DNA of 6,847 bases from Candidatus Neomarinimicrobiota bacterium (GCA_018651745.1 JABIDL010000042.1:1-6847); one strand, 5' to 3'. Positions 396-5,998 are shown, counted from the first letter of the stretch. Notes: generated by a model not told the origin, from the letters alone. Translations and numbers: made by a program.

Positions 396-1094
396 TTAAT
401 TCAAAATGAACTCATCCGAACTCATTATTTTTGAGACAATTTCATCATTTAATTCGTCCAAATTGATAAAAGAATTAGCAAGGTCAATTAGTAATTTTTT
501 AGATGCATTATTTACCAACCATTCAGCGTCTTCTTTTATTTTTTGAAAGGATTCACTCCCATGAAAATGGTGGAATTTTGCCATCATTCTTATTCCGACC
601 AATTCTTGTTCATAATCGAAACTATCAATAACAGGTGATACTTCACTTTTTCTTATTAAATCTATTGCAACATCAGTTCTTAATATTGCGAATTCCCAAT
701 TTTTTGCTTTTAAAAATGCCTTGGCTTCTCGATAATAGTAAAATGTAACAATTGATGGAAGTTGTCGATTTTTTGATAATCCATATTGTGATAGAATTCC
801 AGAATTGGCGCAATGAAAGCTCCAGGCTTCATTATCTGGTTGTCCTAATTCACCATATATATGTCCCATTAAATTATCGATTTCATGATTTTCTTCATTT
901 GCTGATGCACAACCAAGTTTTACCAATGCAGCATTATATTCTTTTTTATCAAAAAGATATTTTGCTTCCTTATAAAATTCATCACACCGTAACCTTTTCT
1001 TTTTCTTGTCATTAAAAAAGAAAACCAGCCACCCAACAGTAAACCCCAATAACGAAGAAATTAAGAAGAATTCAATTGATGAAAGACCAAACAT
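396..1094 (-). CDS. Membrane-anchored TPR-like protein of unknown function, inserted in the purine operon
   Basis: I do not recognise this 232-residue protein as a named family. Residues 7-27 form one hydrophobic segment (phenylalanine- and leucine-rich), followed at once by a basic stretch DKKKKRLR. This suggests a single N-terminal anchor with the rest in the cytoplasm. Residues about 37-100 read like one or two tetratricopeptide helix pairs (FYKEAKYLFDKKEYNAALVK, then NLMGHIYGELGQPDNEAW). Residues 117-147 look like another (YYREAKAFLKAKNWEFAI). The C-terminal part (180-232) is helical-looking without a motif I know. No catalytic motif is visible. The gene is AT-richer than the pur genes (sampled lines about 28-30% GC against about 48% in a sampled line of purM) and lies 42 nt after purM and 12 nt before purQ. 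Its position in the operon gives co-transcription but need not mean a role in purine synthesis. It starts at ATG with no clear ribosome binding site, only an A-rich leader. Confidence 0.8.
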   Translation of the reverse strand: MFGLSSIEFFLISSLLGFTVGWLVFFFNDKKKKRLRCDEFYKEAKYLFDKKEYNAALVKLGCASANEENHEIDNLMGHIYGELGQPDNEAWSFHCANSGILSQYGLSKNRQLPSIVTFYYYREAKAFLKAKNWEFAILRTDVAIDLIRKSEVSPVIDSFDYEQELVGIRMMAKFHHFHGSESFQKIKEDAEWLVNNASKKLLIDLANSFINLDELNDEIVSKIMSSDEFILN

Positions 1095-1106: not shown

Positions 1107-1131
1107 CTTTGTGTTCTCTGCGTCTCTGTGG
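1107..1131 (-). repeat. One-armed copy of the octamer-built intergenic repeat
   Basis: On the minus strand, 5 nt after the purM stop codon, three tandem degenerate units are seen: CCACAGAG (1131-1124), ACGCAGAG (1123-1116) and AACACAAAG (1115-1107, one extra base). These match the purM-distal position and order of the first arm in the two complete copies at 2190-2256 and 4601-4662. The second, inverted arm is absent: A-rich sequence and then the start codon of the TPR-like gene follow directly. No matching arm is seen between that gene and purQ either. Confidence 0.75.
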
Positions 1132-1136
1132 CTATT

Positions 1137-2180
1137 TTATTTAAGGATAACATTTTTCTCTCCACTTATAATCGATCCAATCTCATATACTTTTGTTAAA
1201 TCTTTTAGTGCATCTGTTACTTCATTTACATCAGAAGGATCTAGAATAAAGACCATTCCGATTCCCATGTTGAATGCGCGAAACATTTCGTTTTCATCCA
1301 CATCACCAATGGATTGCATCACATCAAAAACTGGAAGTGATGGCCAGGATTCTTTTTGAAGTTTAACGCCACATCCATTTGGTAAAATTCTCGGGATATT
1401 TTCTACCAGTCCACCGCCGGTAATATGGGCAATTCCTTTCATCTCAATCCCTGAATCCAAAACAGAAAAAACATGATTTGTATAATTAATATGTGGTTCC
1501 AATAATGTGAGCCCAACAGATTTTTCCAATTCAGGAATCGTATCATTCACATCATAACCGCCGATTTCAAAAAAGAGTTTTCGCGCGAATGAATAGCCGT
1601 TGGTGTGTAAACCGTTAGAAGGAAGTCCCAATACCACATCACCGGGTTTAATGTTTTCGCCCGTAATAATTTTTTCTTTTTCTACGACACCCGTAATGAT
1701 GCCAACCAAATCGTGTTCACCGGGTAAATAAGTATCGGGCATTTCTGCTGTTTCACCACCTACCAAAGACACGCCGGTTTCTTTGCAAGCTTTTACCATC
1801 CCGGATACAATTTCTTCAACAATTTCGGGTTTCAGCTTATCATTGGCGATATAATCTAAAAAGGTGAGTGGCCGAGCGCCCATGACCAAAATATCGTTGG
1901 CGGCCGCGCTCAAAAGATCAACCCCGATGGTATCAAACTTTTCCATCTTGCGAGCGATAATTGTTTTCGTCCCCACACCATCAATACTCTGAACCATGAC
2001 GGGATGATCGTAATTTTCAAGTATAGGTTTCAGATCGTAAAGCGAACCGAAACTACCGAGCCCTGTAAGCACATTGGATGTAAAAGTTGACTTAACCCCA
2101 TCTTTAATGCGATCGACTGCTTCGTTGCCAGCATCAATATCTACACCGGCTGATTTGTAATCTATTTTTTGTTTAGCCAT
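1137..2180 (-). CDS. purM: Phosphoribosylformylglycinamidine cyclo-ligase (AIR synthetase) PurM
   Basis: PurM uses ATP to close FGAM into 5-aminoimidazole ribonucleotide, step five of IMP synthesis, in the cytoplasm. The 347-residue length is normal for the family. Characteristic motifs are in order: YKSAGVDIDAGN (8-19) at the N-terminus, DGVGTK (67-72) in the ATP-binding region, AANDILVMGARP (93-104), VGGETAEMP (140-148), GLPSNGLHTNGYS (185-197) and HITGGGLVENIPR (252-264) in the C-terminal domain. It is a structural homologue of PurL, which lies immediately upstream, and its product step follows that of PurL/PurQ. The ATG start is supported by the family-typical N-terminus a few residues later. 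No Shine-Dalgarno sequence is present, and the end of an inverted repeat lies 9 nt before the ATG. The TAA stop is followed 5 nt later by a half copy of the same repeat. Confidence 0.98.
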   Translation of the reverse strand: MAKQKIDYKSAGVDIDAGNEAVDRIKDGVKSTFTSNVLTGLGSFGSLYDLKPILENYDHPVMVQSIDGVGTKTIIARKMEKFDTIGVDLLSAAANDILVMGARPLTFLDYIANDKLKPEIVEEIVSGMVKACKETGVSLVGGETAEMPDTYLPGEHDLVGIITGVVEKEKIITGENIKPGDVVLGLPSNGLHTNGYSFARKLFFEIGGYDVNDTIPELEKSVGLTLLEPHINYTNHVFSVLDSGIEMKGIAHITGGGLVENIPRILPNGCGVKLQKESWPSLPVFDVMQSIGDVDENEMFRAFNMGIGMVFILDPSDVNEVTDALKDLTKVYEIGSIISGEKNVILK

Positions 2181-2189
2181 ATTATTTTA

Positions 2190-2256
2190 CCACGAAGACA
2201 CGAAGGCACAGAGAATGAAACAAAATATTTTCTCCGTGTGCTCTGTGTCTCTGTGG
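2190..2256 (-). repeat. Complete octamer-built inverted repeat between purL and purM
   Basis: On the plus strand the left arm is three tandem octamers: CCACGAAG (2190-2197), ACACGAAG (2198-2205) and GCACAGAG (2206-2213). The right arm is the inverse: CTCCGTGTG (2232-2240, one extra base), CTCTGTGT (2241-2248) and CTCTGTGG (2249-2256). The arms are separated by an AT-rich loop of 18 nt (2214-2231). The RNA of the operon could fold this into an imperfect stem of about 24 bp. The element begins one base after the purL stop codon and ends 9 nt before the purM ATG, so it fills nearly the whole 77-nt gap. No U-run follows on the transcribed strand, which argues against an intrinsic terminator. Confidence 0.85.
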
Positions 2257-2257
2257 T

Positions 2258-4591
2258 TTAAAGTTTGTTTCGAAGACCATTTGTCCATGCTTCTTTTGTT
2301 TTATTTACAGATACTTTGATAACACCATTGATTTGAATTTTGCTTCCGCCCGTTGTACCGATTTCAATAGCATTCAATCCATATTTTGAAAATACGGTAT
2401 TTATTTTATCTAAATTTTCCGGCGATACTTCTAACGCGAATCCACCCGTTTCAGAAAATAAAATTTTATCAGTTGAAAGTTCGGAATCAATTTTTACTTT
2501 GCATCCAATCGCGTTCTCAAAAGTCATTTCTGCAATTGCAGAAGCAATACCGCCGTCCGCAATATCATGACAGGATAAAATTAAACCTGCATCAATGCAG
2601 TCAGTGAGCGCAAAGATTTGGTTTTTAACTTCTTTTAAATTTGGTTTTGGCACGTTGGCGCCCAACTCATCAAAAAGACTATAATAAACCGATCCACCCA
2701 ATTCATCTTTCCGTTCGCCAATCATAAGTAAAACAGAATCGGATTTTTGAAAATGCATAGGAATAGTATTATTCACATCTTTTAACCGACCCAAGCAACT
2801 CACAATAGGGCTCGGTGGAATTGCACCCCTTTTTGATTCATTATAAAAACTCACATTCCCCGCAATAATGGGCGTGGCATCATTGGGGTTATCTTTTAAA
2901 GTGATGGCGTTGCACGCATCGGAAACACCGCGAGTCGCTTCCACAAATTCCCACATTTGGTTGGGCTTTTCAGGGTTCCCAAAACAGAGACAGTCTGACA
3001 AAGCGTGGGGAGTTGCGCCCACGGCTGCCACATTCCGCATGGATTCCACCACAGCATTTACACCGCCCCAATAAGGGTCAATAAGTCCGTATCTTGGATT
3101 ATGATCAGTAGAAAGAGCAATGCCTATATTCCGAATCTCTTCGGGATAATTTTCAGAATTAAAGGGCGCCAATACGCCCGAATCTGCCAACCCCGTTTCT
3201 GTATGAATTCGCCCTTGCACCTGTTTATCGTATTGTTCGTAAATAGGTTCACGGCTGGCCATATTTTCATGAGATAAAATATCCAACAAAACTTGATTGT
3301 AGTCTGTCGGTTCGGGAAGTTCCGGTTCAGTAAAAATTTGTTTCCGCGCTTTGTAAGGGCGATCATATAAAAAACCTTCCGTTACTTCTTTCGCTGGAGC
3401 GTTCACGATTTCTTCATATCCATTATGGACTATATATTGACCGTCATTTCGGATTTTTCCTATAACCGATGCGCGCGCTCCTTCACTCACCCCCGGTAAA
3501 TCAAAGACTGAATTATAATGGTCTAAAACTATAGGCGTTACATCAGGCGAGCATACCCACATAAATCGCTCTTGTGTTTCGCTACAGAGATAAACAGACG
3601 GATGTAATCCATCCATGCCAATATGAATTTTATCCATCCAGACTTCTGCGCCATAGCCGGATGTTTCGGCCAATTCCACACTGGCACACGCCACACCGCC
3701 TGCACCCAAATCCTTGAAACCGATTTTATCGATTAGACCTTTTTCTTTTAAAATGTCAAACAGGGCATAGGATGATTTTAGCAAGTGCCGCTCCAAAAAC
3801 GCATTTGGCTCCTGAACAGCTCCTTTGTTTTGTTCTTTCATTTCTTCTTCTAATTCTAATGAAGCAAAGCTGGCGCCGCCAAACCCACTATTATCTGTGG
3901 GTTTCCCCAGTAAAATCAAATCAAATCCATCCGCATTTTTTGGGGCGTAAGAATGAATAATATCATCTTCCCGAACGATACCAAGCGTTACGAGTGTAAC
4001 TAAACAATTTTCATTATAACCTTCATGAAAATATAAATCGCCACCAATATTGGGGATGCCTAACGGGTTCCCATAACCCGCCACACCCGCCACTACACCA
4101 TCGTGAATCCATTTTGTTTTATTATTGTTAATATTTCCGAATCGAAAAGAATCGGTGACAGCAATCACTTCTGCGCCCATACATAATACATCGCGAACAT
4201 TCCCGCCCACGCCGGTTGCTGCGCCTTCGTAGGGCACAATTTGAGATGGGTGATTATGGGATTCGTGACTCATAACAATGCACCAGCGATGGCCGTTATT
4301 ATCTGTGGCGACAGCTACAACGCCCGCATCTTCTTTGGCACCCAAAACTACATCAGGACCTTCTGTGGTAAATTGTTTTAAATGGTTGCGACTGCTTTTG
4401 TAGGAACAGTGTTCTGAACCCTGAATAGAAAATAAAATAAGTTCAGCCAACGATGGCGCGCGGCCCAACATTTCATTTTGGATCTTAAGCACCTCATCTG
4501 GCGTAAGTGGAATATTGAGTTCAACAAGTTTGGATTTGATATCAGAATCAGAAAGCCCGGCGAAGTCGATAATTTCTTTTGTAAACGCCAT
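2258..4591 (-). CDS. purL: Phosphoribosylformylglycinamidine synthase, synthetase subunit PurL (small type)
   Basis: PurL is the ATP-dependent synthetase subunit of FGAM synthase. It activates FGAR and receives ammonia from PurQ, normally in a complex that also needs PurS. At 777 residues it is slightly long for the small PurL class (about 720-760, from memory) and much shorter than the roughly 1300-residue fused enzyme of E. coli. Visible motifs: SEHCSYKSSR (59-68) with the presumed catalytic His61, SHESHNHPSQIVPYEGAATG (108-127), KDLGAGGVACASVELAE (293-309) opening the second subdomain, PYWGGVNAVVESMRNVAAVG (506-525), and in the last quarter LSCHDIADGGIASAIAEM (672-689) and LFSETGGFALEV (711-722). 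The two PurM-like halves are both complete, with no frameshift. The ATG at 4591 gives the expected N-terminus. There is no Shine-Dalgarno sequence, and an inverted repeat ends 9 nt upstream. Confidence 0.98.
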   Translation of the reverse strand: MAFTKEIIDFAGLSDSDIKSKLVELNIPLTPDEVLKIQNEMLGRAPSLAELILFSIQGSEHCSYKSSRNHLKQFTTEGPDVVLGAKEDAGVVAVATDNNGHRWCIVMSHESHNHPSQIVPYEGAATGVGGNVRDVLCMGAEVIAVTDSFRFGNINNNKTKWIHDGVVAGVAGYGNPLGIPNIGGDLYFHEGYNENCLVTLVTLGIVREDDIIHSYAPKNADGFDLILLGKPTDNSGFGGASFASLELEEEMKEQNKGAVQEPNAFLERHLLKSSYALFDILKEKGLIDKIGFKDLGAGGVACASVELAETSGYGAEVWMDKIHIGMDGLHPSVYLCSETQERFMWVCSPDVTPIVLDHYNSVFDLPGVSEGARASVIGKIRNDGQYIVHNGYEEIVNAPAKEVTEGFLYDRPYKARKQIFTEPELPEPTDYNQVLLDILSHENMASREPIYEQYDKQVQGRIHTETGLADSGVLAPFNSENYPEEIRNIGIALSTDHNPRYGLIDPYWGGVNAVVESMRNVAAVGATPHALSDCLCFGNPEKPNQMWEFVEATRGVSDACNAITLKDNPNDATPIIAGNVSFYNESKRGAIPPSPIVSCLGRLKDVNNTIPMHFQKSDSVLLMIGERKDELGGSVYYSLFDELGANVPKPNLKEVKNQIFALTDCIDAGLILSCHDIADGGIASAIAEMTFENAIGCKVKIDSELSTDKILFSETGGFALEVSPENLDKINTVFSKYGLNAIEIGTTGGSKIQINGVIKVSVNKTKEAWTNGLRNKL

Positions 4592-4600
4592 TTGATTATG

Positions 4601-4662
4601 CCACGAAGGCTCGAAGACACAAAGATACTATAGATTTATTCTGTGTCTTTGTGCCTTTGTGG
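4601..4662 (-). repeat. Complete octamer-built inverted repeat between purA and purL
   Basis: The left arm on the plus strand is CCACGAAG (4601-4608), GCTCGAAG (4609-4616) and ACACAAAG (4617-4624). The right arm is the inverse: TTCTGTGT (4639-4646), CTTTGTGC (4647-4654) and CTTTGTGG (4655-4662). A 14-nt AT-rich loop separates them. The flanking G (4600) and C (4663) extend the pairing by one. The element starts 7 nt after the purA stop codon and ends 9 nt before the purL ATG, the same distance as in front of purM. The octamers agree with the copies at 2190-2256 and 1107-1131 but differ from them at several positions, so the copies are old or under weak constraint. Confidence 0.85.
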
Positions 4663-4669
4663 CTGAGAT

Positions 4670-5998
<1,329 letters not shown>

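Follow-up and report, generated by a model that had tools for sequence, protein, structure and literature searches.

The window analysed here is a stretch of 6,847 bp that makes up one entire contig (C42) of a 1.86-Mb genome of Candidatus Neomarinimicrobiota, and it carries a purine operon on the minus strand. The genes follow each other in the order purA, purL, purM, an orphan ORF of 232 aa and the start of purQ (Table 1). According to the original prediction, three gaps of this operon share one inverted-repeat element whose arms, each made of three tandem octamers, face each other across a loop of 14-18 nt. This architecture is true of the two full palindromes, in the purL-purM and purA-purL gaps, and these do share a common element. 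The gap between purM and the orphan ORF has one arm, and neither a partner arm nor a fold was present when both were sought there; hence the window does not contain three copies of the same element. The two palindromes have fold z-scores of -5.6 (2190-2256) and -6.9 (4601-4662), and their ends read ACCAC...GTGGT and GCCAC...GTGGC.

Table 1. Genes, palindromes and arms of the 6,847-bp window
Feature	Position	Strand	Remarks
purQ start		-	minus-strand operon, beyond the 232-aa ORF
Orphan 232-aa ORF	396-1094	-	minus-strand operon, after purM
Solitary arm (half element)	1107-1131	-	between purM and the 232-aa ORF
purM (AIR synthase)	1137-2180	-	flanking cistron
Palindrome 1	2190-2256		purL-purM gap; two arms and an 18-nt loop
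Palindrome 1, left arm	2190-2213	+	three tandem octamers CCACGAAG ACACGAAG GCACAGAG
Palindrome 1, loop (AT-rich, 18 nt)	2214-2231		relatives G083 and G084 have a GxxExxY gene here
Palindrome 1, right arm	2232-2256	-	faces the left arm; reverse complement CCACAGAG-ACACAGAG-CACACGGAG
purL	2258-4591	-	flanking cistron; anchor for comparing junctions in 21 relatives
Palindrome 2	4601-4662		purA-purL gap; two arms and a 14-nt loop
Palindrome 2, left arm	4601-4624	+	three tandem octamers CCACGAAG GCTCGAAG ACACAAAG
Palindrome 2, loop (14 nt)	4625-4638		relatives G083 and G094 have a GxxExxY gene at the purA-purL junction
Palindrome 2, right arm	4639-4662	-	reverse complement CCACAAAG GCACAAAG ACACAGAA
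purA (adenylosuccinate synthetase)	4670-5962	-	flanking cistron

The pattern YCACRRAG-NCNCRRAG-NCNCRRAG, with at most two mismatches, finds 18 arms in the host genome and none when the same pattern is read backwards as a control. Paired arms without a gene occupy 8 places in this genome, nearly all of them between co-directional ORFs. The genome thus has copies beyond those of the window, and the impression that similar repeats occur in other environmental genomes was right, as they are found across genomes. The loops differ among the palindromes of the host genome, so these do not look like the products of a single gene-less copy that multiplied recently.

Such repeats often accompany genes of the GxxExxY family, a lead that was then tested. 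The host genome harbors three GxxExxY genes and all three have arms. The gene at C15:3635-3985 sits exactly between inward-facing arms (C15:3559-3583 and 4036-4060) of the same octamer type as in the window, while the other two are flanked by inverted arms of other motifs, TTGGACAGGATTACAGGATTACAGGATAA/TTAGACAGGATAACAGGATTGACAAGATAA and ATTCACAACGAATAAAACGAAGCAAACGAA/ATTAACAACGAATTAAACGAATATAACGAA, that form ACAGGATTN and AACGAATN ladders. Complete arm-gene-arm units measure about 440-490 bp with GxxExxY as the sole gene inside, and in many gene-bearing copies the arms stand about 400 nt apart. A scan of 84,980 species genomes yielded 80 GxxExxY loci spread over many phyla, among them Bacteroidota, Cyanobacteria, Chloroflexi, Planctomycetota, Acidobacteria and Spirochaetes, and 79 genes had enough flanking sequence. 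In these named genomes, a set biased to relatives of the C15 protein, an inverted repeat with a score of at least 30 spans 58 of the 79 genes and 2 of 123 control positions taken at a distance of 1.9 kb (median scores 38 and 20). A strong spanning repeat is absent in the remaining 21, and none spans Methanothrix L124, the sole archaeal locus. Octamers also stand on both sides of two plasmid copies, which come from cultivated Bacteroides and Bernardetia. Carriage by phages was considered and rejected, with 0 matches in 50,697 phage records and one among IMG/VR viral contigs; plasmids gave matches in 8 of 72,556.

The arm-flanked pattern is also seen for GxxExxY genes within the window's own phylum, where the gene occurs in 107 of 245 genomes at 0 to 17 copies. 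Genomes with the strict palindrome have it in 18 of 19 cases (Fisher p = 1.7e-6 against the overall frequency); in G065 a palindrome is present and no GxxExxY gene was detected. Among 119 cases, the gene runs in the direction of both neighbours in 102 and against two neighbours that agree with each other in 4. Ordinary ORFs of the same loci are mostly co-directional as well (116 versus 19). GxxExxY thus behaves as a member of an operon, and read-through probably accounts for its expression.

GxxExxY proteins are a 130-aa family of PD-(D/E)XK nucleases (TIGR04256/PF13366, PDDEXK_3), of which the C15 gene product is a full member with 137.9 bits for TIGR04256 (cut-off 35) and 132.8 bits for PF13366 (cut-off 22). 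Across 58 sequences the motif G-x-G-x-x-E-x-x-Y and a D, a K and a Q are invariant and E-x-K is nearly so, and dN/dS ranges from 0.03 to 0.18 in 14 close pairs. The protein is under purifying selection and its catalytic core is conserved. The structure, modelled with high confidence (pLDDT 94), aligns to PD-(D/E)XK enzymes, namely Cas4 SSO0001 (Z 9.6), Hjc (Z 7.2) and restriction enzymes (Z about 6); a Foldseek search alone returned no match with E <0.001. Fold and conserved residues are those of a PD-(D/E)XK nuclease, and the corresponding activity is predicted. A role as a defence system was rejected, PADLOC giving no match except a weak resemblance to Cas4. The NCBIfam and Pfam records retrieved for GxxExxY name no function and do not mention flanking repeats. 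In the open-access papers searched, GxxExxY, PF13366, TIGR04256 and the repeat strings are mentioned in passing and none describes the element. The arm-flanked GxxExxY element is apparently both undescribed and very widespread.

Each arm contains about three tandem cores of 7 nt, each with a spacer of 1-2 nt, and the core differs by protein clade: CRCnnAG, CRCnnAT, ACAnGAT or AACGAA. Arm classes were assigned by regular expression for 176 genes, giving 112 of class A (CRCnnAG), 18 of B (CRCnnAT), 5 of C (ACAnGAT), 1 of D (AACGAA) and 40 unlabelled. On a protein tree built on 117 columns, the four classes of the 136 labelled genes require 3 changes, the minimum possible, compared to at least 20 (mean 23) with shuffled labels; an IQ-TREE subset again gave 3 versus 18-22 when shuffled. 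Within class A, core position 2 requires 11 changes versus 28 and position 5 requires 17 versus 31. More than one motif class occurs within one genome in ten genomes, and hence a shared host is not the cause of the match between motif and clade. The two arms of one element are also more alike than arms across elements (26.8 versus 16.5, p = 3e-23), and they stay so, at 25.2 versus 22.9, when the comparison is confined to genes whose proteins are >65% identical. This greater likeness in gene-bearing elements fits end recognition or homogenisation. Taken together, the arm and protein sequences strongly suggest that the octamer arms are recognised by their GxxExxY protein, although the match may come from a simple joint divergence of arms and gene. 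The clade of a GxxExxY protein would then predict its DNA motif, and the earlier idea of a protein-binding array is supported in this one form, an octamer motif that tracks the GxxExxY protein tree.

With purL as an anchor, the same junction can be followed within the family. At the purA-purL gap, G000, G093 and G085 have a palindrome and G084 has a decayed one. G083 and G094 have the complete GxxExxY element there, and in G086 and others the gap is closed, with stop and start overlapping. The purL-purM gap holds a palindrome in G000 and G093 and an arm-gene-arm unit in G083 and G084, while stop and start overlap without any element in G105, G086 and others. Sites free of the element, which the original prediction proposed to look for in relatives, therefore exist; at some gap-free purine junctions stop and start abut instead of overlapping. 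In G083 a palindrome lies directly downstream of the GxxExxY gene. At the icd/MmgE junction of another family, the species differ in having a class A element, a class B element, a gene-less B palindrome or nested A and B elements with remnants of one class outside the other. In G232 this junction carries an element with an internally deleted GxxExxY gene, and this partly deleted nuclease gene is a bridge between gene-bearing and gene-less forms. Some species of genus g62 keep the gene, and G007 and one G008 contig have a solitary right arm alone; these solitary arms resemble the one at 1107-1131 of the window. An exact empty site with a target duplication was sought at the purine, icd/MmgE and peptidase/carbamoyltransferase junctions, and no clean joint was found; at the empty purine junctions, where stop and start overlap, the divergence is too great for placing a joint or a target-site duplication. 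These states show that fixed sites between cistrons gain and lose elements and that gene-bearing forms can turn into gene-less ones. They bear on insertion itself indirectly at most.

The gene lies between inward-facing arms, the arm motif matches the protein clade, and the element is present or absent at orthologous sites. We consider it likely that the palindromes of the window are gene-less forms, decayed or non-autonomous, of a selfish element composed of arm, GxxExxY gene and arm. Among the three roles first suggested for the repeats, a small non-autonomous mobile element comes closest: the copies are many, sites with and without them exist, and the arm-flanked nuclease is the likely autonomous partner. 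The GxxExxY nuclease would recognise its own octamer arms and cut at or near them, and repair of the break or gene conversion would then spread the element. Settling between co-directional cistrons would allow expression by read-through and leave the host genes unbroken. Loss of the gene would leave the two facing arms behind as a hairpin like those of the window. No PD-(D/E)XK protein is known to integrate DNA by itself. Counted against the preferred reading are the 40 of 176 unlabelled genes and the 21 of 79 named genes without a strong spanning repeat, the G065 palindrome without a detected GxxExxY gene and the different loops within one genome. Also counted are the exact junction and target-site duplication, which are undefinable at the sites compared, the co-directionality with neighbours that an ordinary operon gene would have, the skew of the named set to C15-protein relatives, and the predominance of MAGs among the genomes.

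The alternation of gene-bearing and gene-less states at one site could also be read as homing. Here the palindromes would be a resident target that spread by other means, and GxxExxY a homing gene that cuts them and enters the loop by arm homology. The joint change of motif and protein, the arms on both sides of the gene and the palindrome directly downstream of the gene in G083 are in line with homing. However, it does not account for how the palindromes spread, the internally deleted gene of G232 and the solitary arms of G007 and G008 point to loss from gene-bearing forms, and the palindrome copies of the host genome have no common loops. We regard homing as unlikely. Less probable again is a host binding array, in which a regulator or nucleoid protein of the host would bind the octamers, with GxxExxY as its autoregulated, immobile gene. 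Tandem short cores do suit repeated protein contacts, and the motif-clade match requires binding alone. Presence and absence at orthologous junctions, the nesting of elements of different classes and the patchy spread of the gene through the phylum nevertheless fit mobility better, and the nuclease catalytic residues are kept.

The location between co-directional cistrons, the orientation of the gene along its neighbours and the stable predicted folds would suit a function in RNA, with the arms as hairpins of the operon mRNA (stability, translation spacing) and GxxExxY as an RNase or accessory gene. Yet the compensatory stem changes that this function, the RNA-stabilising hairpin of the original prediction, should bring were not seen. 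Arm identity in the palindromes of the host genome is 18.0/24 within and 17.8 between elements (permutation p = 0.42; p 0.42-0.64 over such tests), and as arms resemble each other no more closely within a palindrome than between palindromes, the stem pairing follows from the shared arm motif. A search of Rfam gave no family match, and a scan for intrinsic terminators found none at the palindromes, its matches lying inside genes alone. A structured or RNA-stabilising element was rejected on the missing covariation and the missing Rfam match. The wide separation of the arms in gene-bearing copies also speaks against it, as does a protein placed in the neighbourhood of DNA nucleases, and the ordinary genes of the same loci are mostly co-directional too. 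An RNA role is very unlikely in our view. We give hardly any credence to REP/REPIN-type repeats moved by a Y1 (RAYT) transposase, for which the short extragenic palindromes in several copies and the one Y1 match of the genome (C30:13038-13289) could be cited, as the arms are octamer ladders and this single Y1 gene has no octamer array in its 3.25-kb locus, which ruled the candidate out, while all three GxxExxY genes are flanked by arms.

The preferred reading, that of gene-less forms of a selfish arm-GxxExxY-arm element, connects two puzzles, a common protein family that has no known function and the tandem-octamer palindromes between genes. If it is true, such repeats can be annotated as the ends and relics of elements, the GxxExxY family gains a testable function, namely to recognise the arms that flank its genes, and a mobile element made of one small nuclease gene joins the known routes by which bacterial DNA spreads. 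More tentatively, and as something possible rather than probable, GxxExxY elements may constitute a large mobile class of many phyla, with a single gene in about 450 bp, moved by nothing more than a PD-(D/E)XK nuclease that recognises octamer-ladder ends, with no need for a transposase, recombinase or reverse transcriptase. These elements would then be the source of the CACAGAG, CACGAATT and ACAGGATT repeat types in environmental genomes.

Several known systems resemble this element in part. REP/REPIN elements and their RAYT (TnpA-REP) transposases comprise extragenic palindromes in gene-bearing and gene-less forms that are recognised by the enzyme (PMC3116915, PMC3733652, PMC8266576). The elements of the window share with them the short extragenic palindromes, both forms and a DNA-processing enzyme, whose recognition of the repeats is presumed here. 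The RAYT enzyme, however, is an HUH tyrosine transposase and not a PD-(D/E)XK nuclease, the arms described here are ladders of three 7-nt cores with the gene inside the palindrome, and neither end of the two window palindromes has a GTAG or CGTC tag. MITEs are likewise gene-less inverted-repeat copies of an element whose complete form carries its enzyme gene, and in our case terminal inverted repeats are common to the gene-less form and the arm-flanked element of autonomous type. Unlike in MITEs, the loops vary among copies, and the partner enzyme is a small nuclease on its own, encoded by the sole conserved gene inside the arms, instead of a DDE-like transposase. No target duplication was found at the junctions compared, whose empty forms are too diverged for placing one. 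Homing endonuclease genes, some of them of the PD-(D/E)XK type such as I-Ssp6803I, are likewise elements made up of a single small nuclease gene that is under selection and whose DNA motif changes together with the nuclease. The difference lies in where the conserved motif and the gene are found: in homing systems the motif is a split host target and the gene sits within genes or introns, whereas here the motif forms the element's own ends and the element lies between cistrons.

The GxxExxY element, in which a small nuclease gene lies between two inward-facing octamer arms, is present in three cyanobacterial genera (loci L096, L111 and L115). At these loci it is positioned 3' of a methionine gamma-lyase-like gene and is followed by a convergent FrhB-like gene, and the junction looks to be common to all three genera. 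Another junction, that between icd and MmgE, carries GxxExxY elements in the sister species of genome G231; in G231 itself (L238) it is filled by a different inverted repeat, TGAGCCTGTCGAAGG ... CTTCGACAAGCTCAG.

In genome G065 a search for the GxxExxY gene detected none, despite the presence of a strict palindrome, the gene-less form of paired arms. This palindrome may be a stranded relic, or else the gene was missed. The 232-aa ORF beside the solitary arm in the window had zero matches in Pfam, NCBIfam and PADLOC, and no relatives of it were found among the 39 family genomes.

Locations of the orphan ORF and of the palindrome in G065
Feature	Location	Strand	Remarks
Orphan ORF, 232 aa	window 396-1094	-	between purM and purQ, adjoining solitary arm
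Strict palindrome	G065:C18:15831-15879		genome 97%-complete

The flanks of the GxxExxY gene take several forms. At L100 each side has a complete palindrome of ~125 bp instead of a single arm. In L253 and L255 the right arm is amplified in tandem 3' of the gene, ahead of a carbamoyltransferase gene; here a ~35-70 bp unit with the octamer arm at its end is repeated 4 to 10 or more times. A variant repeat, CACAACGG / CAGAACGA, forms long arrays that flank the gene on both sides at L105 (Flavobacterium).
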